This document shows positions 92 through 42,284 of a DNA stretch of 43,529 nucleotides, piece by piece. Under the pieces are notes generated by a model, which made no database searches, had not been told where the DNA came from, and worked only from the letters and a program-made list of their open reading frames with translations. Each line of letters opens with the position of its first letter. Positions within the stretch are counted from its first letter, which is position 1. Origin of the DNA: Deltaproteobacteria bacterium (GTDB lineage Bacteria; Bdellovibrionota; Bdellovibrionia; Bdellovibrionales; JAMPXM01); assembly GCA_017302795.1 (NCBI GenBank), contig JAFLCB010000018.1, forward strand, positions 1-43,529. Reading direction: 5' to 3'. A program made the position numbers and the translations under genes.

Positions 92-112
92 CGGGTCCTG
101 TAAACGCAATTC

Positions 113-457
113 CTACCTAATCCAGCTGAACTCGATTGTTTCCCATCTTGCTCGAACCAACCGTTCCGAGAAACCATGGGTGTTTTCATCTCGCACGCGA
201 ACTCCGTTGATCTGCAGAGAAACCTTCGCCTTTATTACGTCCCCAGTTCGATTGATATTCACCAGCTTAAAAGTTTTCACAAGGTGGGTTTCGTTCTGTG
301 CTCCTAGTTCAGATTCGTTAAGAGCAGGTCCTGCGCGCAGAACTTGCTCGACAAACTTTCTGACTTTTGCATCCGCTGCATTCGGCTTAGCAGGAACAGC
401 GTTTCCAGCTGTGGCGTACACAATTGCAACTAGCACAAACATGAGTGCTTTGATCAT
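113..457 (-). CDS. Small exported protein, last gene of the envelope operon
   Basis: Encodes 114 aa. The first 20 residues form a typical signal peptide (MIKALMFVLVAIVYATAGNA, cleavage likely before VP). The mature part is about 94 aa, has no cysteine, and alternates charged and hydrophobic residues as expected for a small alpha+beta fold. I do not recognise the family. Its ATG overlaps the stop of the preceding gene by four bases (ATGA), so it is translationally coupled to the NlpC/P60-like protein and probably works with it outside the inner membrane. Two stem structures follow the stop codon, consistent with the end of the transcript. Confidence 0.75.
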   Translation of the reverse strand: MIKALMFVLVAIVYATAGNAVPAKPNAADAKVRKFVEQVLRAGPALNESELGAQNETHLVKTFKLVNINRTGDVIKAKVSLQINGVRVRDENTHGFSERLVRARWETIEFSWIR

Positions 458-1857
458 TTGGACACCCCGCCTATTTGCGGCTTTACACGAAGAACATACG
501 CATTTTTTTCACCACCCGATGAGAATGCTGGAGATTCGCACACATCGCCCGGGTAAATCTCACGGAAAGTACTTCCAGCTGATCGGTACTCGCCTGCAAT
601 CGCCTCGTAAGTTGCAATTTGTAAAGCTCCCTTTGCATCTCGCTTATAGCCCTGAAACACGAATGCATGACCAGGAAAAACCACCGTGTCCCCTGGTTCA
701 AGATCGGCCTCGCACTCGTAGGGCCTTACTGAATAGAGTGACTTATATTCGGCGATCTCAGGAAACTGTGCTTCAGCATTCGGATCGCGCGCCATCGATA
801 CGACCCGAGACGACAGCAGTTTGAAATCCGGCGACATCGCTAGTCCTGCTTCCTTTTGGCAGCGTTGAATCATTGCTGTGCAATCAGTTCCCGTCGATTT
901 CGGAACGGCTTCGCGCGTTGGAAAATTTTCTGGTGTGGATCCAAGAAAATAGCCATTATGTAACGATGTCGACAACAAGTTCGTTTCACGTTCACTGTTC
1001 GGATTGTTGTAATCGAACTTCAACGATACCTGCCCAAGTAATGCCTGAACTCGATCTGGCTGCTGCTTCCATTTTTCACGAAGAACTTCGAAAAGAATAA
1101 GCTTTGCTACCGCTGGAGTAATTGCCGGACGCACCGTTCGCGGTGACACTGGGTAGGCAGCCGCGCTCTCACCTTGATTTTCGAACGCTCGCTTCTTTAG
1201 ATGATTGAAAATCGCACCGGGGGTTCTAAGTTCTTGGAGTTCATCCAACCCGGATCTTTCATACTTTTTCGCTTCGACGCGAGTACCGTCAGACAAACTA
1301 ACGACACGTGTTCCGCGCAGGCTTTCTTCCATCGCCTGATATGATCCATTAAGTGTGTAATCTCGGTACCAAGGCGCTTCCGGATTATCTGCAGCTATTT
1401 TTTCTTTTCGTAAAGCATAGTCACTCTCTGACGAAAAAAACACCGCTTTCAATTCATCTAACGAGACGCCCACGATTTTTGATTCTTCAAGTGCCCCTCT
1501 AAGAAGTTCGTCGTCCTTCTTTCGATGCGATAGAATCGTCTTATCGACGTCTTCGAGGCAGGCCATAAATTTCTGATTGTCAAATCCGCCGCTCAAATTA
1601 GCAGACTGAAGAATTTTTTTAGCGGCATCAATACCAGTAAGTCCGACTGAACCCATGTGAGAAAGCGAGGTTTCGCAGCGATAGTTTTTTGTTCCGATAT
1701 GTTTGTGAGATTGGCTTTCGCGTAACGCTTGAAGTGATTTGCAATTTGTCGACCAGTCCTTGCACGACTGCGCTAAAGCCTCTCCGTTAAAGAAAAGTCC
1801 AGAGTAGAAGCCGACAGAGATCGCCAGCACCGCCGCAGTACGAGACGAGTTGATCAC
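454..1857 (-). CDS. Exported protein with C-terminal NlpC/P60-like (papain-fold) domain
   Basis: Encodes 467 aa with an N-terminal signal peptide (ending near GEALAQS). Residues about 35-300 are a helical, charged region that I do not recognise. The C-terminal about 145 residues resemble an NlpC/P60 or CHAP-type cysteine peptidase or amidase: a Cys in GTDCTAMIQ (Cys326) heads a helix, and about 70 residues later LEPGDTVVFPGHAFVF carries the His (His397) in the usual GD...H setting. Such domains cut peptide cross-links in peptidoglycan. The gene overlaps both neighbours by four bases. The catalytic assignment is inferred from motif spacing; the long N-terminal region could set specificity or substrate binding. 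Confidence 0.7.
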   Translation of the reverse strand: MINSSRTAAVLAISVGFYSGLFFNGEALAQSCKDWSTNCKSLQALRESQSHKHIGTKNYRCETSLSHMGSVGLTGIDAAKKILQSANLSGGFDNQKFMACLEDVDKTILSHRKKDDELLRGALEESKIVGVSLDELKAVFFSSESDYALRKEKIAADNPEAPWYRDYTLNGSYQAMEESLRGTRVVSLSDGTRVEAKKYERSGLDELQELRTPGAIFNHLKKRAFENQGESAAAYPVSPRTVRPAITPAVAKLILFEVLREKWKQQPDRVQALLGQVSLKFDYNNPNSERETNLLSTSLHNGYFLGSTPENFPTREAVPKSTGTDCTAMIQRCQKEAGLAMSPDFKLLSSRVVSMARDPNAEAQFPEIAEYKSLYSVRPYECEADLEPGDTVVFPGHAFVFQGYKRDAKGALQIATYEAIAGEYRSAGSTFREIYPGDVCESPAFSSGGEKNAYVLRVKPQIGGVSK

Positions 1858-2792
1858 TTTTTAACTTCAACTTTTTTGGTGGTTCCGACAGACGCAGGTG
1901 TTATAGGCCGCTTCGCGTGCTCCGCAAAGAGCCACTCTAGCGATTCCTTGTAGTCAATCATCCGGATCGGAGTTCCATGTTTTCCACCTTCAAAAACCTG
2001 CATTTGCACCGGATACTTCGGATCCATTTTTTTTAAGGACGTGTAGTGGTCAATATAGTCCGTTGGCGGAACGATTGGGTCCTTAGATCCGTGCGAAAAA
2101 ATAATCGGCAGGCGCGACGCAGCGATGGTCGAATTTTCGATTCCAGGAAGCGTGTCTGTACCGCCTAAAAAAACCAGGCCCGCTAATGCTTGACTCGTTT
2201 TAGGGTTTTTTGCCGAGTCCCAGCAGGCGAAGGCTCCGGCAGATCCGCACACAAGAATCACTCTCGCATTTGGTGACTGGGTTCGTATGTGCGTAATCAG
2301 CGTGTTGACGTCGGCATTCGCACCAACCGTCGGACTGTAGTAAACTCCACCATTTGTGCTGACGATATTTTTGAGACGGTTAAAATTTCCACCAAAACTT
2401 ACATCGTTTGCGCCGATGTCTTTGTTTCCGCCTGCACCGTGAACAAACACAACGGCAAAACTAGCGTTCTTAGGCTCACCAACCTCATAGGCTTCGATTT
2501 GTGCCCCGCCATCGCGCTGAATATTCACAACTCGCTGCGACTTCAGAACACCAAGGTCAACGCGATTATCTTTCGCAACCTTACCCGCAACTTTGTCACG
2601 CCCATTAACGTCTTGGTCGCCAAAGACATAGCGCTTGTACGCTCCTCCATCACGAGCCTCTAGCACCTTGCGACTCTTTAGCGAGTACAAATCGTCTTTG
2701 AATGGCTTCAAAGCTTGAGCCAACGCTACACGCGGGGCTCCACTGAATACCAGGATTGCTAAAATAAGCGCGAACTGAAGAGCATGTTTCAT
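1854..2792 (-). CDS. Exported alpha/beta hydrolase
   Basis: Encodes 312 aa with a signal peptide (about residues 1-26, ending VALAQA). The alpha/beta-hydrolase landmarks are all visible. The oxyanion loop is VFVHGAGG (about 115-122). The nucleophile elbow is VCGSAGA with Ser184, a Cys replacing the first Gly of GxSxG. The acid is Asp238 in HGSKDPIVPP and the His is His272 in GGKHGT. It is therefore likely an active esterase, lipase or peptidase in the periplasm or outside the cell. Its substrate is unknown. The operon places it with peptidoglycan-type hydrolases, so an envelope ester or peptide is a reasonable guess. It overlaps both flanking genes by four bases. Confidence 0.85.
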   Translation of the reverse strand: MKHALQFALILAILVFSGAPRVALAQALKPFKDDLYSLKSRKVLEARDGGAYKRYVFGDQDVNGRDKVAGKVAKDNRVDLGVLKSQRVVNIQRDGGAQIEAYEVGEPKNASFAVVFVHGAGGNKDIGANDVSFGGNFNRLKNIVSTNGGVYYSPTVGANADVNTLITHIRTQSPNARVILVCGSAGAFACWDSAKNPKTSQALAGLVFLGGTDTLPGIENSTIAASRLPIIFSHGSKDPIVPPTDYIDHYTSLKKMDPKYPVQMQVFEGGKHGTPIRMIDYKESLEWLFAEHAKRPITPASVGTTKKVEVKK

Positions 2793-3238
2793 TTTTTCTT
2801 ACCGTATATTCGCGCCGAGTTGGGGAGGCGCGACTCATAATTACAGAGTTCTTCAATGCTAACAATATTCGGAGTCTGTGAATTCAAGTCAGCGACGCTT
2901 TGTATTCCCTCAAGTAGCTTTGCCTTGGGTTCGTTCGTTTCCGTGTTAATGAGATAGAAAAAAAGCCCCTCAGCGAGTTTCGGCGTTCGAGAACTTTTTA
3001 CGGCGCCAAGTTCAAAGTAAAGATAGGCATACAGGTTCGACCGTTCGACCTGGCCAAGTGCCTGAGGCGTAAAGTTTTTCTCGCTGGTAGCAAATGGCCA
3101 CTTTACCGCCTGACATTGCTGGGCCGGCTTACGTGCTTTCGGATTCGCCGTTGCACTGTTAACAACACTTGCCGCCAGCGAGGAAAGAAGAAGTGCGCAA
3201 GACGCAAATAGTATTATTTTTTTACTTGAACGGCGCAT
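2789..3238 (-). CDS. Small exported protein of unknown function
   Basis: Encodes 149 aa. The N-terminus MRRSSKKIILFASCALLL... is a basic stretch followed by a hydrophobic core, typical of a signal peptide, ending around the Ala/Asn-rich segment at 27-32. The mature protein has three cysteines or fewer and a conserved-looking hydrophobic core (YAYLYFELGAV) but no motif that I can name. It starts 25 bases inside the preceding SH3-type gene and ends in a 4-base overlap with the hydrolase gene, so it belongs to the same tightly coupled operon. Confidence 0.7.
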   Translation of the reverse strand: MRRSSKKIILFASCALLLSSLAASVVNSATANPKARKPAQQCQAVKWPFATSEKNFTPQALGQVERSNLYAYLYFELGAVKSSRTPKLAEGLFFYLINTETNEPKAKLLEGIQSVADLNSQTPNIVSIEELCNYESRLPNSARIYGKKK

Positions 3239-5415
3239 CTCTCACTCCCGACTTCGATTGCAAAACGATCGTTTTTATCAAATTTTCGATAGATTACCCG
3301 TTGATCGGTTGGACTCAGCTTTCCCGAAAGAAAGCGCGTCGGGACATAGACGTGTTTAATGCACTGGTTTTCTTTGAGAAGCTCTTCGATATATTCAACC
3401 GTTTTATTTGGACAATAGTTCGGCGGCCCCTTTGGTTCGTCTCGAAACCGCGGCTGACTGATTTGCTGTGGTAGGGGCGTAGGAGTTGGTTTCGGAACAA
3501 ACTCGTCGCCTAAAATCTCTTTCACAACACCTGGCTTAATGAAAATCGGAATGCCAATCGTCAATTCACTAACGAGGCTACCGGGATCATTCTGATAAGT
3601 TTTCGCAACAACAGCGCGTGAAAACCGTCCATTTGCGATATTCACAAACTCAGGCGTCACAGAGCAATCAAGAGAATCTCCTCGCGGAGTCTTATCACTG
3701 TATAGGTTCAAGCGCGCGTGACAAAAGCGGGCGAAGCTTATGAAGTCAGCTGAGTGAGATTTTATTTGGTCGTCAGTCGCCGACTGCGCGGCCTTGAAAA
3801 ACGGTTCTGCGTCTTCATCGTAAACCCCGAAGCCACCTACATTACCACCGTTACGAGATTGGTAGATTGGCTGACTACTTCTTGTATAGGTGGAGCCAAA
3901 ACCGCTAATGCCCAGTCCACCCAACTGACGTCTTTTGCCCCACTTCGAATTGATCCATTCGTCGCACTTCGACTTATCATTTTGACAATCGAGATAGAGC
4001 TTCATCGCTTCTTCCGAATCGCGACGCATCTGCGCCTTTATTTCACTGACTTGCGCGTGGCAGCTAGCCATGGCCTTGCGGATTTCGTCCGGCGTTCGAC
4101 TTGCAAGCTCAGTCTCCTCCGGTACGTAGCTGGCGTACGGAATCTCGGCGTCAATACTTCCGCGGTACCCTTGGGCTTTATTGATTGCCATTCGAATTCG
4201 ATCACTACCGCGGTATCCGGCATCGTGTAGTGCACCTTGAGCCGTCGCTGCTTCATTAATGTCTGGTGCTGAATCGAAGTCGATTTTTTTCAGAGCTTCG
4301 CGAACCTCTTTCGCTACGGGGTACAATTCGCAATCGCGAGGTGTCTCGCTGCTAGCAATCGCGAGACAATCAGAGTTTTGGCGTCGGAACTGAGCCAGCG
4401 ATTGGGTCAACTTTTGATAGGGATTTGCCATCGTGTCGAGGTCGGCAACATCAAGTCTAAGCTTAGACGCAATTCGCTTGATTTCCTTGTCGTAAAAACG
4501 AATGTTATCCTTATAAACATCAGCACCCGTCATCATCTCGTCGGGAGTTGCAAGGGGTGGCGTGGAATCTTGCGAACCATCTTGATTGGCACTTGTGGAC
4601 GCGGCCTGCTGTAACTTCAATGCTGCAGCTCGCTCTCGACTTTCTTTGACCGCATCAGAAAGTGACAACTGCGGCGGAACTGGTCGTGGGATCTGTGGTT
4701 GATTGTAATATTGATTTCGATCGTCGATTTCTTTTGTTCGATCGCGACACTGAAAATCTTCATTGTCGAAGCTCACGGCTTTTTCGCCGTCAGCTGGCAT
4801 CTTTGGTCCAACTGGAGATACATAAATCAAATTGTTCTCAGTTCCGATGGATTTCGATCCAAGCTTTGCCTGCAACGCCGTTGCGCAGGCCTTCCCACCT
4901 TTCGAGTCTGCTTTACAGGAAAGCGGATTCAATGGGCGAACGTCTTTTGCCTGATTGCTTTCGAGGACTGCCTCTTTGATCCAGCCAGTCTGTCCCGTTT
5001 CAGTCTCGATTAATCGCCAGGTTGTCGTATCGCAGTCGAGTGCTCGGCTGAGCATTCGGAAGCTCTGATTTTTTTCGATAACCCCGACCGGAGCGCCGTA
5101 CGCGGCCGTATTTGCCCCTTGTTCGGATCCGAATCGACCACGCTCATCGTCGGTTGTCTTACAAAGTGGCGGTGCAGAAACCAGCGGCAAAGTTTTTGTG
5201 ACGACATAAGCTTGTTCCGTCGGCACATTCGGGCCAGGACTCTTCGGCTTTGCGTCTGCAGCTTGCGAGTTTTTCCCTTTAACAGGAACCGGGGCAACTC
5301 CCGACACTGATGACTGCACGCCGGCGGGAACTTGAACCACGTCCGGTTTAGCCGACACCAAAGTCGAAAGCGGCTTCACAGCAGGCGAACCGACAGCCGC
5401 CTTCACTTCGGACAT
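3214..5415 (-). CDS. Large protein with N-terminal SH3b-like domain, envelope operon
   Basis: Encodes 733 aa. After a Pro/Ala/Val-rich linker (about 1-65), residues about 70-152 look like a bacterial SH3 domain: VVTKTLPLVSAPP, a glycine-rich turn, and TTWRLIETETGQTGWIKEAVL, the usual W...GW.. ending. Such domains bind cell-wall peptides. The rest is long, charged and cysteine-containing (for example CHAQ, CQNDKSKCDEW, CSVTPEF, CPNKTVEY) with no family that I recognise. Unlike every other protein of the operon it has no signal peptide from the available ATG, and no alternative start lies immediately upstream, so its export route is unclear. It overlaps the DUF1402-like gene by 13 bases and the next gene by 25. 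Confidence 0.7.
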   Translation of the reverse strand: MSEVKAAVGSPAVKPLSTLVSAKPDVVQVPAGVQSSVSGVAPVPVKGKNSQAADAKPKSPGPNVPTEQAYVVTKTLPLVSAPPLCKTTDDERGRFGSEQGANTAAYGAPVGVIEKNQSFRMLSRALDCDTTTWRLIETETGQTGWIKEAVLESNQAKDVRPLNPLSCKADSKGGKACATALQAKLGSKSIGTENNLIYVSPVGPKMPADGEKAVSFDNEDFQCRDRTKEIDDRNQYYNQPQIPRPVPPQLSLSDAVKESRERAAALKLQQAASTSANQDGSQDSTPPLATPDEMMTGADVYKDNIRFYDKEIKRIASKLRLDVADLDTMANPYQKLTQSLAQFRRQNSDCLAIASSETPRDCELYPVAKEVREALKKIDFDSAPDINEAATAQGALHDAGYRGSDRIRMAINKAQGYRGSIDAEIPYASYVPEETELASRTPDEIRKAMASCHAQVSEIKAQMRRDSEEAMKLYLDCQNDKSKCDEWINSKWGKRRQLGGLGISGFGSTYTRSSQPIYQSRNGGNVGGFGVYDEDAEPFFKAAQSATDDQIKSHSADFISFARFCHARLNLYSDKTPRGDSLDCSVTPEFVNIANGRFSRAVVAKTYQNDPGSLVSELTIGIPIFIKPGVVKEILGDEFVPKPTPTPLPQQISQPRFRDEPKGPPNYCPNKTVEYIEELLKENQCIKHVYVPTRFLSGKLSPTDQRVIYRKFDKNDRFAIEVGSERCAVQVKK

Positions 5416-6176
5416 ATATTTTGAAACGAAAAATCCAAAGTAGTTTGATTTAGGAGTCGCGCCGTTTTTTTTGCTTGGGCGGCCTTCTCTTTTGACTTTC
5501 CCAAATTGTACAACGTTGTCGAGACACCCACATCTTTTGAGATGTCAAATCCTTGTGCTTTATAATCGTCTTGAACTTGGCGCACAATAGCCCCAACAAG
5601 TCGTATGCACTTCGCTGGATCAAGAATCTCTGCGCGAATCTCATCCATCGATTTCGCTGGACGACCTTCGATTTTGGCGACGTGAGCTTCGGCTTCTATC
5701 GCAGCCTGGTCGTTAATTTGCCCAAAGCCATAGGAAAACTTCTTACTTCCTACACCGGTAATTCCCATGTTGGCAGCAAGCCAGGTTTGTGCCGTATCTT
5801 TCATGCTCACGTTCATCGTGTTCTCTGCGATAATCGCACCAGCAATCATCACCGGGTCGATGTTATAAAGCTTCGCAACACGGTGGATTTCTGCGTTCAT
5901 CGCGGGGCTCTTGATCACGGCGAGCAGTTCGTTGCGGGGCTTAACCCACGCACCATCGCTCATTTTTAGACGCTCGCAATACTGATCGAAGCTGCAGACA
6001 TCTTTGAATGCTTTTTCCCAATCAGGAGCGGCTTGCGCAAATGGCACAAGAAGCAACGCTAGCATAATGAGAATAGAAAATAGACCGGTCATTATAAGAG
6101 TTAACGGTATATTTTCGATGAAACTATAAGCGGTTCCACGCCTTGAAGTATTATTTCGTTTGGAATCTTCGATCAC
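5403..6176 (-). CDS. DUF1402-like, lysozyme-fold exported protein (first gene of operon)
   Basis: Encodes 257 aa. A long N-terminal hydrophobic segment (about 22-49) ends in FAQA-AP and is a signal peptide or anchor. The mature part resembles DUF1402 and lytic transglycosylases. NIDPVMIAGAIIAENT supplies a candidate catalytic Glu118 (the usual Glu-Ser replaced by Glu-Asn). SYGFGQIN (148-155) matches the S.G..Q(I/M) motif, and TTLYNLG (221-227) matches the later Y-N motif. It would cleave or bind glycan strands of peptidoglycan. It is the first gene of a six-gene overlapping minus-strand operon. The upstream gap of 63 bases to the RraB-like gene may hold the promoter. Confidence 0.75.
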   Translation of the reverse strand: MIEDSKRNNTSRRGTAYSFIENIPLTLIMTGLFSILIMLALLLVPFAQAAPDWEKAFKDVCSFDQYCERLKMSDGAWVKPRNELLAVIKSPAMNAEIHRVAKLYNIDPVMIAGAIIAENTMNVSMKDTAQTWLAANMGITGVGSKKFSYGFGQINDQAAIEAEAHVAKIEGRPAKSMDEIRAEILDPAKCIRLVGAIVRQVQDDYKAQGFDISKDVGVSTTLYNLGKSKEKAAQAKKTARLLNQTTLDFSFQNICPK

Positions 6177-6239
6177 AAGACAAAGGCCTAGCCTAGTGGC
6201 TTCAGAAATGCTGCCTGGGTAAAAAATCAGAGAATTTAA

Positions 6240-6605
6240 TCACACCTCAATGCCCCAGCCGTCGAATTCACATTCACAGGCTGCTCCTTGGACGACGATC
6301 CAGGGAATCCATGCTTCAAGAATCTGTTCCGTTACTTCAGTAGGATGTGTTTTCCCATGGACTCGGAATTTACGAGAAAAGATACTTCCAGATTTCTCAA
6401 CCATTAGGTTCAGACAATCATTTGCCTCTAAATTTTTAACTAATTTTTGTGCAGACTTTTCGTTAGGAGCATTAAAATAGAAATCAAGCTGAACCGATCG
6501 GTCAGAGGCCAGGCCGGCATCTCGAATCGCCTTCAAGGTCTCATTACTCATGAGCAAATGCCTTGCGGCGATTTCCTTAGCCTTTGATTCCTGCTTCTCA
6601 GTCAT
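6240..6605 (-). CDS. RraB-like protein (regulator of ribonuclease activity B family)
   Basis: Encodes 121 aa and is soluble, with no signal peptide. The core DRSVQLDFYFNAPNEKSAQ followed by a helix ending LEANDC, and the closing CECEFDGWGIEV, match the ferredoxin-like RraB/DUF695-type fold, in which a strand with D/F...F.F is followed by helix and strand and the domain ends in a YDGWE-type motif. RraB proteins in Enterobacteria bind RNase E and adjust its activity. Whether this distant member does so is inference. An N-terminal helix of about 30 residues precedes the domain. It is separated from the operon downstream by 63 bases and appears to be transcribed alone. Confidence 0.65.
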   Translation of the reverse strand: MTEKQESKAKEIAARHLLMSNETLKAIRDAGLASDRSVQLDFYFNAPNEKSAQKLVKNLEANDCLNLMVEKSGSIFSRKFRVHGKTHPTEVTEQILEAWIPWIVVQGAACECEFDGWGIEV

Positions 6606-6850
6606 AAGTGATCCTCTTCGAGTGGTCCTCGATAACCGGGGAGGTTGTCATATCAGCGTTGATTTCAAAATCAAGGAAGTTTGGAGCTCGATAAAACCTC
6701 ATCCGAAGAGCTTCTCGAACGCCATATTTCGAAAAAGTTATACAAAAAACACAATAAACAACTTACGTAAATTCAGCTCTTAGGTCAGAGCGCAAGCCTA
6801 TTCGACTTTGGTCTGTTTAGATATGTAACTCAGGTTCCGAAAAGTCGAGT

Positions 6851-7588
6851 GTGCAAACCTGGTGTTTGAAGCTTCTAATTTTGCTACTATTGGGTGGACT
6901 TGGAATAGATCAAGTTTGCGCACAGGTGCATCCATCGGATCCCGACTGTCCAGACGCATTTCGCGACTTGTTTGCCACTCTCAAGTCGCACCTTGGTGAC
7001 GCGGTCACCGACAAACGATTTCCCGATGTTGAAGTTTCCTTTCTTGGCCAAGGGCATGGCGGCGGCAATGTATATCACGTCAAACCCAAGGATGGATCCT
7101 CACCGTTTGTAGTGTAAGATTATGTATTAGGCGGCGACGATTCAGCTATCAACGATGCACTTGGTTTGCAGATTTTAGATCACATCACAAGTGGTCGTGC
7201 GACTCCAAAAGCAATGCGCCCCGTGAAGTTGCTCGAACGACTTGATATCGAAACTTTGAAGCTTGAATACGTTTCTGGAAGAGACATTCAAAAGATCGCA
7301 GCGGAAACCGTCGATGCTGAGGCTCGCACAAAGCTAGCGCGACTTTTTATGCGTCAGTTGGAAACGCTGAAAAACGATCTGCCTCACGGCAAAGAATTGA
7401 CCGTTGGTAAATATAGCTACAAGGTCCTTGATTCGACCTACTATCCTTCCAAGGTGTCTGGCTTTCAAGATCTCGTGGTTGTACTTCGCAGAAAAGAATA
7501 TCCAAAGGATCTTGTTCAGCTCTGGATCAAGCCCGATAATGTCGTAATTACGCCAGACGGCGACTTCGTTATTATCGATCCTCGATAG
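6851..7588 (+). pseudogene. Kinase-like exported protein, interrupted by one in-frame TAA
   Basis: Two open segments (88 and 140 aa) lie in the same frame and are separated only by TAA at 7115-7117; the joined reading would be about 245 aa. It starts (GTG) with a signal peptide (cleavage near VCAQV). LGQGHGGGNVYHVKPKDGSSPFVV resembles a glycine-rich loop and beta-3 strand. The stop falls where a kinase would have its invariant Lys, followed by DYVLGGDDSA. Near the end IKPDNVVITPDGDFVIIDPR matches the catalytic loop and DFG strand of protein kinase or APH folds, but the catalytic-loop Asp position is Trp (QLWIKPDN) and the C-lobe stops at once. It is a pseudokinase remnant, or a kinase-fold protein with a nonsense mutation. 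Confidence 0.7.
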
Positions 7589-7792
7589 GAACTTCAGCAT
7601 AACAAGATTAAATGTTCGATTAAGATCGAGAATTCCAACTATTTTAACTGATCTCGGAATGAGGCGACTTTAGAATCGTATGCCTGTTTTGAGAGTGAAT
7701 CAATTTTTGCCGTGTACTTCCGAGACTTGTTTAGAATTGCGTTTGATGTTTTACGACTTAAGTCGTGGCTAAGGATCGCCGATAGAAGCAGT

Positions 7793-9127
7793 ATGCAAAA
7801 CAGTTCGACAGAAATTGATGGTTTGAAAATTCTGCTGGGCCATCATTCGTGTCTCATTTTGGACTCGTCCTTGTTGTTTACAACAAACCTTCGGGGAGCT
7901 TTACGTCTCCTTGGGCTTCCGGCAGGTCAAATTTTTACCGCCACGAATTTGGCGCAAGCCTCTGGTTTATTGAATGAGAAAAGACCCTCTCTTCTCATAT
8001 GCAATTACTCATTGGAAAACACCGAAGCCTATAGTTTGGTTGAAAGTTTCGAGAAATCGCAACCCGAAAAAAACCGCGTTACGCTACTCACGATTTTCAA
8101 AGGCGAAACTCCGCTTATTTGCAGAGGCCAAGTCGATGGTCACATTGAAAAACCATTCAATATCGACGCGATCAGAAAAACTCTACTCAAAGCTCTGGTT
8201 AATAAGTTTTATCCTGATGAGTACACGCAGCATGTGCGTGCCGCAGATGACTTCGAAGAGGCTGGGAATCTAGCCCTCGCGATCGACAAATACGCGGAAG
8301 CCAAGAAATTGAGTCCAAAACCCTTTCGGGCTTGTCGTGGGTTGGCGAAGGTATTCCGACGTCAAGCCCGACTCGCTGAAGCCTTAGTTGAACTCCGCGT
8401 AGCTCGTTCCTATGAGCCGCTTGATTTTAAGACGGTCACCTGGGAATTTGAAGTTCTAATAGAACTTGGAGATTTTGAAAGTGCGGTCGGTCTTGTGCCT
8501 TTGATCCGTGACTCTTTTCCGCTCAGTCCTGAGCGCCTCGTTCAGCTTTTCGATGTCGTGAGGCTTTCGAATCGGATGGATGCGCTGGTTCCGCTTTTAA
8601 GAGTGTTTCGAACTATGACAAGAAGGACGAAACCTTTACTCAAAGCTATTGAAGTTTCGTTCTTTCACGCCGGAAGTTCGATGATTCCCGGCGATCTAAA
8701 AAAGAGTCATGAATATTTTGAAGTCGGGTTTAATTGCACCGGACGAAAATTCGAATTTATCGATAGCGTGGTCCGAGAATATCTCCGGCATAATTTAACA
8801 GCTGCGGCTGAATCGTTCTTATCAAAGACTGAAGCCTCAGACGTTGGATCAGGCAGCTACCAGAGGCTTTGTTTTGAGATGGATTGTCGGACTATGTCTC
8901 AGGAGCAGATTTTGAACCGCGGGCGAAAACTAATTGCCGATGGGCATGGGACGCCAGAAATTTTCTTGATGATGGTGGCTATGTTTGCGAAAGCTGGGAA
9001 AAAGACACTCGCAGAATCGATTATTTCAACAGCGACTGAGAAATTTCCTTTCTTGCGAAGTCAGCTTTACGAGGTACTGAGTCTTAGTTCGTCGTCAACT
9101 ATCATTGATTTAAAAAAAGCGGCTTAA
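7793..9127 (+). CDS. Degenerate receiver domain with TPR-like repeats
   Basis: Encodes 444 aa from the ATG at 7793; a GTG at 7712 would add 27 residues. The N-terminal about 130 residues have a CheY-like pattern (CLILDSSLLFTTNLRGAL, then PSLLICNYSLEN, then DGHIEKPFNIDAI). The Lys-Pro of the receiver is kept, but the phospho-acceptor Asp is Asn (ICNYS). The C-terminal about 300 residues are TPR-like helical repeats, beginning with AGNLALAIDKYAEAKKLSPKPFRACRGLAKVFRRQARLAEAL. It is cytoplasmic with no output domain of its own, so it probably acts by protein-protein contact without phosphorylation. It has its own leader region and no close operon partner. Confidence 0.8.
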   Translation: MQNSSTEIDGLKILLGHHSCLILDSSLLFTTNLRGALRLLGLPAGQIFTATNLAQASGLLNEKRPSLLICNYSLENTEAYSLVESFEKSQPEKNRVTLLTIFKGETPLICRGQVDGHIEKPFNIDAIRKTLLKALVNKFYPDEYTQHVRAADDFEEAGNLALAIDKYAEAKKLSPKPFRACRGLAKVFRRQARLAEALVELRVARSYEPLDFKTVTWEFEVLIELGDFESAVGLVPLIRDSFPLSPERLVQLFDVVRLSNRMDALVPLLRVFRTMTRRTKPLLKAIEVSFFHAGSSMIPGDLKKSHEYFEVGFNCTGRKFEFIDSVVREYLRHNLTAAAESFLSKTEASDVGSGSYQRLCFEMDCRTMSQEQILNRGRKLIADGHGTPEIFLMMVAMFAKAGKKTLAESIISTATEKFPFLRSQLYEVLSLSSSSTIIDLKKAA

Positions 9128-9345
9128 AACATTTTGAACGGCGTTCTGATAGTTCACTTCGACCTTTTTAGCGCCGAAGGACCAAAGACTGTACCTAAAT
9201 CCGCCAGCCAGAGAACAGCCGAAAAAACCAAGCCGTACAATCGCCAAGGCCGGCGATGATCTAGCCCTAAGTAGCAGCCGCGATAGCGCCGGAAGCCTCC
9301 GGCCAATTTCATAAAGAAAAAGCGAAAATCTGCCGAAATAGACTA

Positions 9346-12300
9346 GTGAAATGTACTATAAAAACGCGTAACAAAATGATTCGCCCCCTTGCAATCATCG
9401 TTAGAATCTTGTCCGGACTAATATATTTCGGCCAAGTGACGGCCACCTACGCCGCTAGCCAGGCGACGATGCAGGAAGTTGATGCGATAGTGCAAGAAGC
9501 CGGCAGTATTGATGGACTTCTTGCGAGTTCCGAAATTCAAGACAAGTATTTTCTCGCGCTGAAAGCGTATTACGGCAACGATGAGAGATTTACTCGCGGA
9601 TCATTCGATGCCATCCTCGGTCAACTTAGAAGAGTCGCACAATCCCTTCCGTCCATTAAAGATCGCCTTTGGGAGGAAATCCCAAGACATAGTTTTGCAG
9701 TTCAATCGGATGTTAAAACTCATGGGCGACTCCTCAACGCCAAAAAATGGGCTCAACATATTGCTACCACAAAAGATGAATTAAACTTAGCCGCGGAGGA
9801 CTTCAATAAGGCTCATGCGATGGTCGCGGGCGAGCCTTCGCCAAAGCCGGTGCAGTCTGCGATCGCAACAATTGAAACTCATATTGCGAATTTTGAAAAA
9901 GACATCGCGACTCTTCCCAAAAAAACCCGCGAACTAAAACGTGTTGATTTCTATAAGGGACTTGAAAATGATGAGAGTATCAAATCGCTCGCGGCGAAGA
10001 TTGTCGCTGACCACCTCGCGAAGACGGAAGTTGCCGAAAAGCTTTCGACGACCAATCCTGACATTCTCATCGACCGGCTAATGGATCTTACACAGAACCC
10101 TCATAAACTAATACAGGGATCCGACGGCGATACGCTTAAGAAAATTCCCCCCGGCTTGATCAGGGCGATTAAGAAACAGCTTCCAGATGTAACCGTGCTA
10201 CTTCAATCCACAGACATCTTTCCGGTGGCAACGCGGTTAACGAATGAGGGGCAGTCGCCCGTACTAGCTGGAAATCCGGGCGAATACCGGTTCACAACAA
10301 TTCCGCGCCGAATCCACGGTATATTTAAGGGCGTTGTGCTCAACGAGTGCGTCGGCGGATCTTGCTCGGATTTATCAAGCCTATCGCCCGAACGGTGGGC
10401 AACAAGCGCCCTCAAGGGTAGCCGTGTCATTCATGTTACACAAAACGGATCCTATCTGGGGTTCATACAAGAGATTCCAATCGTGAACCAAAAGACGAAT
10501 AAGATCTATTCATCGTTAGACATCGGTGTTCCCCAATTTTCCACCAACCTGATTACCGTTGACAAAAATACCGGCAATTATCAGCAAGCATCGCTATTTG
10601 AACGTTGGATCGCAAACGCTGGTCGAACCACTCCGAACACACTGTCGGAATCCGATCAACGGCGATGGAGCGGATATGTCATGGGAAAAAGTGCGGCCAT
10701 TAACAATGCCAATGCGCTACCAGCCGCGCGAGGCACCGCGGCCTACTCCCTCTTCGGAAAACCAGTCGGAATGAGATCTGATTTCGAGCATTATGACCCA
10801 CTCGGTGATAAAATTCCCGGGATTGTTTCCCCGCGTGGTCACGCGGTGACTTACGGTGGATCTATGATTTTTGATGCCTTCGTTCCCGACTCGGCCCCGC
10901 TTACCAAACTCGGCGCTGTAGATCCGGAGGTAGTTCGAAATCCCGCAAGGTTCAAGGCACTCTTAGATCGGGCCAAGCCCGAGGTTATAAAAAAATCTCT
11001 CGACTACCTTGCCACCGACAACCCACTAGATCCAGCAGACACAGCGATGCGCCAGCAGGTGCTTGCTAGTCTCCAAAATCATAAAGACATTGAGGTAAGA
11101 GTTACTGTCTGCCGAAACGCCTTCCGTCGATCTATGCCGCTACCCGGCTGTTACCAAATCATCAAAGAGGCACTGCTGAGTCCTACATCAAGTCCGTTCA
11201 TCGTTAGATGGAGTCTCGATATGACGGAAGGCCTCAGGCCGGACCAACGGGTCGGCGTGATTCGCGACTTTCTAGCAACTAATCACCCAGCAGAATTGAA
11301 AGTGTTAGCGAGCGAACTTGGACTCAAATTCGGCCTTCCTCCTTCCCAACTAGTTGAGCCAGCGAAAAACGGCGGATACTTGAGAAGGATAATACAAATT
11401 GCCGACCGGTTTTTCCCTGAAAATTCCAATCAGCGCGATTTCCTTTGGGATTTGGTGAACGACGAAACTCCTGAAGTACGACACGCTGCCCAAGCGGCAA
11501 TCACCCTGGACTCTGCTTCGGCAATGCGACTGCTTCGGCTCGACTCTTTAGACCCCAAGCTAATTTCACCAGCGATAAATGAATTGAATCCTGCAGAGTT
11601 CGACAAAGAGGGCAGCCTCGAGCTCTTTGGAAAAATGCTAGACGAATCAGCTCAACGCGGTGATAGCCTCGAAGGCCAGAAAATCGTCGCCCTCGCCTAC
11701 TCGAAATCTGGCGGGCACTTCAGCAAAATCCCCAAAAAGATTGTTCAATCTATGCTCTCCATATCCAACCCGCTAAGTATCAGCGGCTCGCCGTTTTTCC
11801 AGCAAGTGGAGGAGGCACTCGTCGCCAAGGCACCCGGATACCTTGAACTGATCGACTCGATCGCGGATGAAAGCCAAAATCGATCTGTCTATTTTGAGAC
11901 GTTGGCAGCGCGCGCATTGCTGGCTGAACCCGAACTCGCGAGCGATCCGAAACGGCACCAACAAATTAGACGATTGTTCAACCGACAAAGCACCAATAGC
12001 ATTGCAGAAATTATAGCAAATGTCCTCGCACGCGACAAGAATACGCCATGGCGAGGTGCGCTGTTCGATGCCCTCGAATCGGTCCTCGTTGACCGACTCG
12101 GCAATCGCGGGGCTCTAACGCCGCTTGCAGCAGCTAGATTGCTCAACAGCCTTGTGCCCATTTTACAAAGCGACAACACCAAGGAACAGATCAAAGCAGG
12201 CGAAATTGTTTCCAACGCGATAAACAAGTTTGGCCGAGATGGAGGCGTATTTTACGACGATGCAGGTCTTAAAATGGACGAGCTTCTACGCGCTGGCGAT

Positions 12301-18232: not shown

Positions 18233-19933
18233 ATGGCAAAGGAAAACTTCTTTATGGTCACGACGCTCGACGATCTTGCAAAGTTAGCACGCTACTCTTT
18301 TGTTGAGACTCTCAACTGTGATCCCGAAGCGAAGCCCAACGGAGCCGATCATTCACCAAGAGAAGTTTATTCCGGGCACTATGTAACTGTGAATCCGACG
18401 CCAATAAAAGACCCTGAATACGTCTGTCACAGCCGAAATCTGTTTCGTGAACTTGGCTTCGCTGAAGAACTGGCACAGTCAGCGGACTTTGTCAGGATAT
18501 TCTCTGGAGACCTCTCGCACGTTCCACAGCCGATGCGAAAACGCGGTTGGGCCTGCGGCTATGCTCTTTCCATTTACGGCAGGGAATATTACCAGCAGTG
18601 CCCTTTCCAAACCGGCAACGGCTACGGCGATGGTCGCGCGGTTTCCGTGTTCGAGGCCATCATCAACGGCCGCCCTTGGGAAATGCAGCTCAAAGGCGGC
18701 GGTGCTACACCGTACTGTCGAGGTGCTGACGGGCGGGCGGTTCTGCGCTCGAGCGTGAGAGAATTTCTGGCACAAGAACACATGCACGCACTTAGAGTAC
18801 CAACCTCACGATCTTTAAGTTTATATGTTTCCAAAACTGAGAAAGTAAAACGACCTTGGTATTCTCAGAATTCGGCCTCAGAGAATCCCGACATCCTGAC
18901 AGCGGAAGCCGTTGCGATTACGACAAGGGTCGCTTCGTCGTTTATCCGGATTGGTCAGCTTGAGCTTTTTGGTCGCCGTGCCCGGAAGAATGAACACCCA
19001 AAAGCAATGGATGAGCTCGAGAAAATAGTTTTGTTCTTAATCGATCGAGAGTACGGCGAAGTTATTGATAAGAAACTCGCTACTCCCGAAAAAGTTTTAT
19101 GTCTGGCGCGCAAGTTCATGGATCGGCTCACGTCGCTAGTGACGAACTGGATTCGAGTCGGCTACTGCCAGGGTAACTTTAATAGCGACAACTGCGCCGC
19201 CGGTGGCTTTACTCTCGATTATGGTCCGTTTGGCTTTTGTGATGTGTTTGATCCGGAATTTCAGCCATGGATCGGCGGCGGACATCACTATTCGTTTTTG
19301 AACCAACCGCTGGCAGCCGAGCGAAATTTTCACATGTTTTGCACTGCACTTCTGCCACTCTTAGTTTCTCATCAAGACTGCCAGCGACAGCTAGTGGAAA
19401 TTCAAGAAACCTTCGCCACAGTGATGCAAGATAAATTGAAAAAGATGTGGGCCGCAAAGCTTGGACTCACCAATTTTGAACCGGAATTGTTCGGCGAACT
19501 CGAAATGCTGATGGCGCAAACGCCAGTTGATTACATCATCTTCTTCCGCGAGCTTTCGATGTTACCTGAGGAAATTGGACCGCTTAAGAAAAGCTTTTAT
19601 AACAAAAACGACACTGAAAGAATGAACTCACGCTGGTCAAATTGGTTCACGAAGTGGAGAGTGTTGATTGATTCATCTCCCATCAGCTCGCATGATTTAT
19701 TGTCCGCCCAGATGAAACTCGTAAACCCAAAATATATTTTACGAGAGTGGTTTCTTGTGCCTGCGTATCAACAAGCAGCTGAGGGTAACTACTCTTTAAT
19801 TCGAGAGCTGAATGAAGTGATGACTGATCCGTATGCCGAGCAATCAGTGGATGTTGAGAAGAAATATTATAAGCTCAAGCCGACCGAGCTGTTTAATGTG
19901 GGCGGAGTCTCGCATTTTAGCTGCTCGTCTTGA
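18233..19933 (+). CDS. selO: SelO family protein adenylyltransferase (divergent)
   Basis: Encodes 566 aa. SelO is a pseudokinase that transfers AMP from ATP to protein hydroxyls and links to redox stress. The landmarks are present: [33 protein letters not shown] with the nucleotide-binding Lys154, [20 protein letters not shown], and the active-site Asp pair ten residues apart (Asp319 in NSDN and Asp329 in LDYGPFGF). The protein ends FSCSS, with Cys where eukaryotic SelO has selenocysteine. Oddities: the usual CHGVMNTDN is CQGNFNSDN, and the Cys that pairs with the C-terminal one in E. coli (FICNHSD) is replaced by FQPWIGG, with Cys336 nearby. An alternative start is Met8. It is transcribed alone, with decayed genes upstream. 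Confidence 0.93.
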
Positions 19934-20166: not shown

Positions 20167-20869
20167 ATGTATTTAAGGAACTGCTTATCTTCGCTTTCGC
20201 TCGCTTTTCTTTCGTTCGCAGCGCTTACCGCGTGTCAGGTTTCGGACACATCACCGAGTGAGCCCAAGAGCAAGGCAAGGCAAGGCAAGGCAAGGCAAGG
20301 CAAGGGCTGAACCACAGATCAATGATGGCTGGGGAACTGTTTCTCTTCAAACACCAATGTTTTTACCAATGGAGAGAAAAAAAGACGGCAGTCGGTTGAT
20401 TCAGCCAAAGGGAAGGCCTATCAGCGCTAGTCGAATCTATGGCATCAGCCAACCGAATGAGCTGCCTTCGACACTCACATGCAAGAAGTTTGGATCTTTG
20501 CTAGCAAACCGCATCACGTTCATGGAACGAGACACGCTTGGGCACCGAACCAAAGAGGCCGCCTTTACTTTCGAGTCAGAAAACTTTCCGAGCGGTGCAG
20601 TTGATCTTGAAACCCACAAGGGCAACAGCCGCTTCAACGTGGTATATCAAGAAGGTACCATTCGATACTCTAGCCGTTGGGATCATACTGTCTGCAAATC
20701 GAATATAAGTATAACTACAAACGAGCGCGGAATCGAACAGCTTGTAGGCGAGATCGAATGTAAGAATTTGGTCGGAAATAGTACGGCGCTAGACGCTTCT
20801 CAAGGTGCGCTTGATGATCTCGACATCCGGGTGAATTTTAGATGCGATGTCGATGATCGCAGAATGTAG
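20167..20869 (+). CDS. Candidate phase-variable lipoprotein gene (currently out of frame)
   Basis: The ATG at 20167 opens a clear lipoprotein signal peptide (MYLRNCLSSLSLAFLSFAALTAC), but this frame runs through seven CAAGG units and stops at TGA 20308-20310 after 47 codons. The body (about 190 aa, with four cysteines in LTCKKF, TVCKSN, IECKNL and NFRCDV) is open in the next frame, which on its own has only a GTG at 20258 and no signal peptide. One extra unit or two fewer would fuse signal and body into one protein reading K-A-R-Q-G repeats between them. The gene is therefore either phase variable and OFF here, or a recent pseudogene. The mature fold is unknown. Nothing else is close on this strand. 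Confidence 0.7.
20271..20305 (+). repeat. Pentanucleotide tandem repeat (CAAGG)7
   Basis: Seven perfect contiguous copies of CAAGG (35 bp) occupy the junction of signal peptide and mature region of a lipoprotein gene. A five-base unit shifts the reading frame whenever its number changes, the classic contingency-locus arrangement. With seven copies the signal-peptide frame ends at 20308; eight or five copies would join it to the downstream body. Confidence 0.95.
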
Positions 20870-20974: not shown

Positions 20975-21298
20975 CTACTGCTGTTGGTTCCAGGTTCCAT
21001 TTATTTGTTTGAAGGTCATTCGCGTTTTAGTTGTTTGTCCTTCGCCAGAGGACTCTTGAGTCAGAATGACTTCGTTTTCCGAAACGGACTCGTATTTGTT
21101 TTTTACTGAATTTTCCACTCCACCAGCCGGTACGACTGGACTTCGAATCAATGAACCATCCATTTTTCTGAAGGTCAAAACATCATAGCCAAGCTCAAAC
21201 TCCACTCCATCAAATGCTGGCACCTGAAGATTGAAAACCGAAACGAATTTAGCGCTTTGACAATTTTGTGTGAAACGTTCGAGCGGGATGGTCAACAA
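20975..21298 (-). CDS. Small probably exported protein, start unclear
   Basis: Encodes 107 aa from a TTG start. The reading frame continues upstream as LSGFFVLSLLTIPLERF, a hydrophobic stretch that looks like a signal peptide, but back to the TAG near 21348 only TTG codons are available as starts. The mature part is beta-rich (KFVSVFNLQVPAFDGVEFEL, RMTFKQINGTWNQQQ) with one Cys and no family that I recognise. It may use a TTG start, or have lost its 5' end. It is transcribed toward the lipoprotein gene on the other strand. Confidence 0.5.
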   Translation of the reverse strand: MLTIPLERFTQNCQSAKFVSVFNLQVPAFDGVEFELGYDVLTFRKMDGSLIRSPVVPAGGVENSVKNKYESVSENEVILTQESSGEGQTTKTRMTFKQINGTWNQQQ

Positions 21299-21484
21299 AG
21301 ATAAAACGAAAAAGCCTGATAGCGACGGCGGCGCAGGCGGCGATTTCTAACGATCACACGCGGCGCTTGCTGCGCGACAATGAAGACCAACGACTCACAT
21401 ACATAGGAAGGATGGCTGGTCACACTGGGAAACCAGGCCTTCGTTTGCAACTGAAAAATAGCTGAAACGACTATTGAGTAACGA

Positions 21485-41949: not shown

Positions 41950-42085
41950 AGACTCTCCATGTAAACTTGGGTTGATTGGTTGATTTATCAAACTACGCTT
42001 TAGGTTAACTTGTGCGTCCAAGTAAACTGGCAAAAACGAAAATCGACTATAATCAATGTTCGCCGAAAATTTTTCGCCTCAAGAT

Positions 42086-42115
42086 GTACTGTTTAGTACT
42101 GTTTAGTACTGTTTA
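42086..42115. repeat. Decamer tandem repeat (GTACTGTTTA)3
   Basis: Three perfect contiguous copies of a 10-base unit, followed by a degraded partial fourth (GTTCTGTT), lie upstream of the small exported-protein gene and downstream of the diguanylate cyclase gene. The spacing of about one helix turn would place repeated sites on one DNA face. Confidence 0.9.
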
Positions 42116-42284
42116 GTTCTGTTCCCCACTTCCCTTTTACAACTTGAGAAGTCTTCAGCGCCGACTAACGGGCGACGGCGGAGTACTCGTGATGACTCAC
42201 TTGGGGCTGATGATTGTTACACTTGTTTCGCGAGATTGGCTTGATAAGTAGAGAGAAATATTTTTGCGGTGCGGGCTTTGTACC

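Follow-up and report, generated by a model that had tools for sequence, protein, structure and literature searches.

In a 4.23 Mb draft genome of 39 contigs, a perfect tandem array of the pentamer CAAGG lies between a lipoprotein signal and a coding-like, stop-free body, the signal being placed correctly upstream, and we give a probability of about one half to the reading that this is a slipped-strand contingency locus, known from one assembly sequence and caught there in its OFF state. The locus sits on contig C18, the whole of which is the stretch of DNA analysed here (43,529 nucleotides, hereafter the window); its features are collected in Table 1. In the mechanism that we propose, a single orphan lipoprotein gene would carry the tract just behind its lipobox, and slipped-strand mispairing during replication would alter the copy number, presumably in a reversible manner. 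Every third copy number (5, 8, 11) would join signal and body into a lipoprotein of 230-240 aa, the ON state, and the remaining ones would lead to an early stop, the OFF state, which the seven copies of the assembly would represent. The repeat would act as a basic linker (QGKAR) behind the lipid anchor, where varied ON lengths should be tolerated, and the lipoprotein would reside in the envelope, where its switching may bring a selective benefit. A lipoprotein need not be surface-exposed and may also face the periplasm.

Table 1. Coordinates of the features at and around the CAAGG locus, and of the repeat-linked pseudogene elsewhere in the genome.
Feature	Position	Strand	Description
CAAGG x7	window 20271..20305	+	perfect tandem tract; unit not a multiple of 3, encodes QGKAR
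Lipoprotein signal ORF	window 20167..20310	+	n-region with Arg, hydrophobic stretch, LTAC lipobox (Cys 23), short linker into the repeat
Body	window 20309..20869	+	orphan with four cysteines; 186 codons plus stop, in the next frame relative to the signal
Alternative signal-less ORF	window 20258..20869	+	203 aa; GTG 20258 upstream of the tract, in the body frame at 7 copies
SelO neighbour	window 18233-19933		
Orphan ORF	window 20975-21346	minus	about 107 aa; good codon use
Exported-protein gene	L229:4421-5190 (G000:C4:264421-265190)		frame change at an 8-mer tandem repeat
CGCCGTGT x3.5	L229:4910-4937		tandem repeat at the frame change

The tract is an extreme outlier against the genome background, beyond chance. 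Its periodicity covers 36 bp (counted from 20270), against 16 bp for the runner-up among the pentamer tracts in the 2.80 Mb surveyed, which is two thirds of the genome; tetramer tracts longer than 16 bp were absent from the same 2.80 Mb, and a first-order Markov model produced no pentamer tract longer than 14 bp in 1.2 Mb. In a search of the whole genome, (CAAGG)3 was found at the window locus only, and when 358 other genomes from the phylum were searched, none contained (CAAGG)4. CAAGG was thus the one long pentamer or tetramer tract in the 2.80 Mb surveyed, so that a repertoire of them (a phasome) is not seen in this genome. All copies are identical, as expected for an array turned over by slippage, and because the unit is free of stops in every forward frame, the frame downstream is set by copy number alone. 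When products were computed for 3 to 12 copies, a long one was obtained at 5, 8 and 11 copies only (230, 235 and 240 aa, respectively), all others measuring 42-85 aa, with 75 aa for 6 copies and 47 aa for 7. The seven exact copies described in the first-pass annotation are thus found at 20271-20305, and its arithmetic, by which 5 or 8 copies fuse the frames and 7 give 47 aa, is right, 11 copies being a further number that fuses them.

Signal and body are favoured as a single gene, OFF in the assembly, by the codon score of the body, its stop-free length and the rarity of such a signal by chance. Translation from the ATG at 20167 begins MYLRNCLSSLSLAFLSFAALTACQVSD and ends after 47 aa at 7 copies, with the stop codon at 20308-20310, and the lipoprotein signal sequence MYLRNCLSSLSLAFLSFAALTAC reads on into the repeat. 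Signal-like ATGs made up 14 of the 30775 in a reversed-sequence null, that is, approximately 4.5e-4 per ATG. The body frame is open from stop to stop between 20177 and 20866, and its codon score of 0.053 is the best of the six frames, even if low for true genes (reference values of 0.168±0.071 for true frames and -0.25±0.12 for wrong ones). A stop-free run of 186 codons had a P of about 0.003 in a conservative simulation that kept the body's own trinucleotide bias. Copy numbers of 5, 8 or 11 are needed to bring the basic n-region, the hydrophobic stretch and the LTAC lipobox into the frame of the body. The first-pass annotation had seen a clear lipoprotein signal in the frame of ATG 20167 and a body open in the next frame; a signal with an LTAC lipobox is indeed present and rare by chance, the body can be confirmed and counted as 186 codons from 20309, and anatomy, codon use and tract statistics lend good support to the proposal that the tract splits one lipoprotein gene. 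The switch that the annotation proposed would be a plausible and specific reading of this layout. On the plus strand, no sigma-70-type promoter or terminator was predicted near the gene, and a single-sequence structure prediction (pLDDT 38) gave no more than a hint of beta strands and was set aside.

Judged by similarity searches, the body is an orphan. No homologue was found in 148 relatives, in 369 genomes of the phylum, or in plasmids or viral contigs, no paralogue occurs in its own genome, and neither signal nor body has a Pfam match. Weak matches of the body in the genomes G072 and G118 (E about 0.008) were discarded: one lies antisense within another gene and has two stops, and the second has a longer ORF on the opposite strand. 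The SelO neighbour is 66-78% identical to SelO of distant lineages as against about 30% to SelO of the same genus, and was probably acquired horizontally; a second SelO copy, on contig C2, looks more native. Synteny followed through this neighbour revealed no syntenic locus, since its close relatives sit in distant lineages and the copies of the same genus are only about 30% identical; the SelO-bearing loci of relatives are without the body. A 768-aa neighbour has one distant relative only within the genus. The ORF of about 107 aa that adjoins the locus has no convincing start or signal in its frame and no homologue in 59 relatives, and is possibly a gene remnant. Rfam families and tRNA genes were not found in the window.

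Among known systems, the nearest analogue is opa of Neisseria, whose leader-coding region holds CTCTT repeats that switch at ~1e-3 per cell per generation (PMC3960869); tracts of 7-21 copies have been reported (PMC5953494). The two share a run of pentamers near the start of the coding sequence, together with a signal sequence, and a unit that is not a multiple of three, and on the proposed mechanism they would also share the turning ON and OFF of translation by slippage. They differ in that variation has been observed in opa, whereas the CAAGG locus is known from one sequence; that in opa the repeats belong to the leader of a beta-barrel protein of the outer membrane, whereas CAAGG stands behind the lipobox of a putative lipoprotein; and that opa is a multigene family, whereas the CAAGG gene is a single-copy orphan. 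Homology to the Opa family was not found, neither signal nor body having a Pfam match, and the likeness would be an analogy of mechanism only. The simple-sequence contingency loci catalogued with PhasomeIt in Campylobacter and Neisseria offer a further comparison. Pentamer tracts are there called phase-variable from 5 or more copies, and the longest of the three frames is taken as the putative ON product (PMC5953494, PMC6321876); the CAAGG locus fits both rules, although PhasomeIt loci belong to phasomes and this one stands without a phasome in the 2.80 Mb surveyed. A unit that is not a multiple of 3, seven copies against a cut-off of five, a copy number that sets the reading frame of a coding-like gene, and a tract that exceeds the background length of the genome are all found at this locus. 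In known phase-variable loci, the mutation rate of the repeat tracts exceeds that of the genome as a whole by a factor of 100-10,000 (PMC11868660).

A doubtful but serious alternative is that the gene is recently dead or dying, a one-off expansion or contraction of the tract having broken its frame with no use as a switch. It draws on an observation made elsewhere in the same genome. When tandem tracts of 16 bp or more (unit lengths 4, 5, 7, 8, 10 or 11 bases) were surveyed, one tract besides CAAGG, CGCCGTGT x3.5, stood at a clear frame change, and the gene for an exported protein that contains it is demonstrably a pseudogene. Both halves match a single frame of a homologue from the same genus (G002), so they formerly were one gene; beyond this, the gene departs from G002 by a deletion and two more frame changes. 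G002's own copy has an in-frame stop, and a relative from another genus, G012, keeps an open frame across the matching stretch. The CAAGG gene resembles it in that both would encode an exported protein, both have a repeat unit that is not a multiple of three at the frame change, and in both one additional unit would mend the continuity at the repeat junction; in this lineage, then, a tandem repeat found where a frame breaks does not prove a switch. When frame switches at short tracts were sought from codon use, they occurred at the background rate only, which was not informative. The lack of relatives in the genus, or of any orthologue of the (CAAGG)7 gene in the 369 phylum genomes, with a single allele known and no repertoire of tracts, also weighs against a switch, as does the adjoining 107-aa ORF, which lacks a convincing start and appears truncated. 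Against a dying gene, the pseudogene has further lesions whereas the CAAGG gene has seven perfect copies, a stop-free, coding-like body and no other lesion that is visible, although deletions would escape notice in a gene without a homologue. The intact body speaks against an old death only, since under simulated neutral decay 35% of bodies were still stop-free at 5% divergence.

That the copy number was misassembled or miscalled in the consensus, the gene being constitutively in frame, is unlikely: the number comes from a single draft assembly, but a tract of 35 bp is shorter than ordinary short reads, which would make a miscounted consensus improbable, and the absence of other pentamer tracts of such kind from the 2.80 Mb surveyed would also argue against it. 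Nor is it at all likely that translation starting at GTG 20258 yields the body as a protein without a signal, the signal-like ORF being incidental or a separate short peptide. This start, which the first-pass annotation does not mention, is in frame with the body when there are seven copies, but a lipobox signal directly upstream by chance is improbable. It is preceded by a weak Shine-Dalgarno sequence and no good one, which is poor evidence against it because many genes here seem to be without one (a clear one was seen at 397 of the 1094 first ATGs of long ORFs). That both starts are used and the tract switches localisation, 7 copies giving a cytosolic form from GTG 20258 and 5 or 8 a lipid-anchored form from ATG 20167, is very improbable. 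Least credible of all is a programmed +1 ribosomal frameshift inside the repeat that joins signal and body at seven copies. The repeat is open in every forward frame, so a slip at any point would work, but no known +1 slippery stop motif was recognised in it by eye, and frameshifting would be superfluous given DNA that is prone to slippage.

Repeat-driven phase variation is known chiefly from host-associated bacteria. In the part of the literature covered by our search, we found no report of it in Bdellovibrio. If the slippage switch is real, an envelope lipoprotein turned on and off in this lineage, which is probably related to Bdellovibrio, would point to surface bet-hedging in a setting other than host immunity; defence against phages and encounters with other bacteria are examples.

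Other repeats were noted in the same genome. Contig C7 opens with about 300 bp of a GGTGTT/GGTGTA hexamer repeat (L189:1-300; G000:C7:1-300), which exceeds in length every other microsatellite-like array in the surveyed part of the genome, and a cluster of imperfect heptamer and octamer repeats of the GGGATCG type, seemingly non-coding, lies at L245:17890-17977 (G000:C6). Within the window, a direct repeat of GTACTGTTTA (x3.8, at 42086-42123) has a unit of 10 bp, about one helical turn. It precedes, by some 135-170 bp, a minus-strand gene for a likely small exported protein (ATG near 41951), and possibly represents regulator sites or a source of promoter-length variation.
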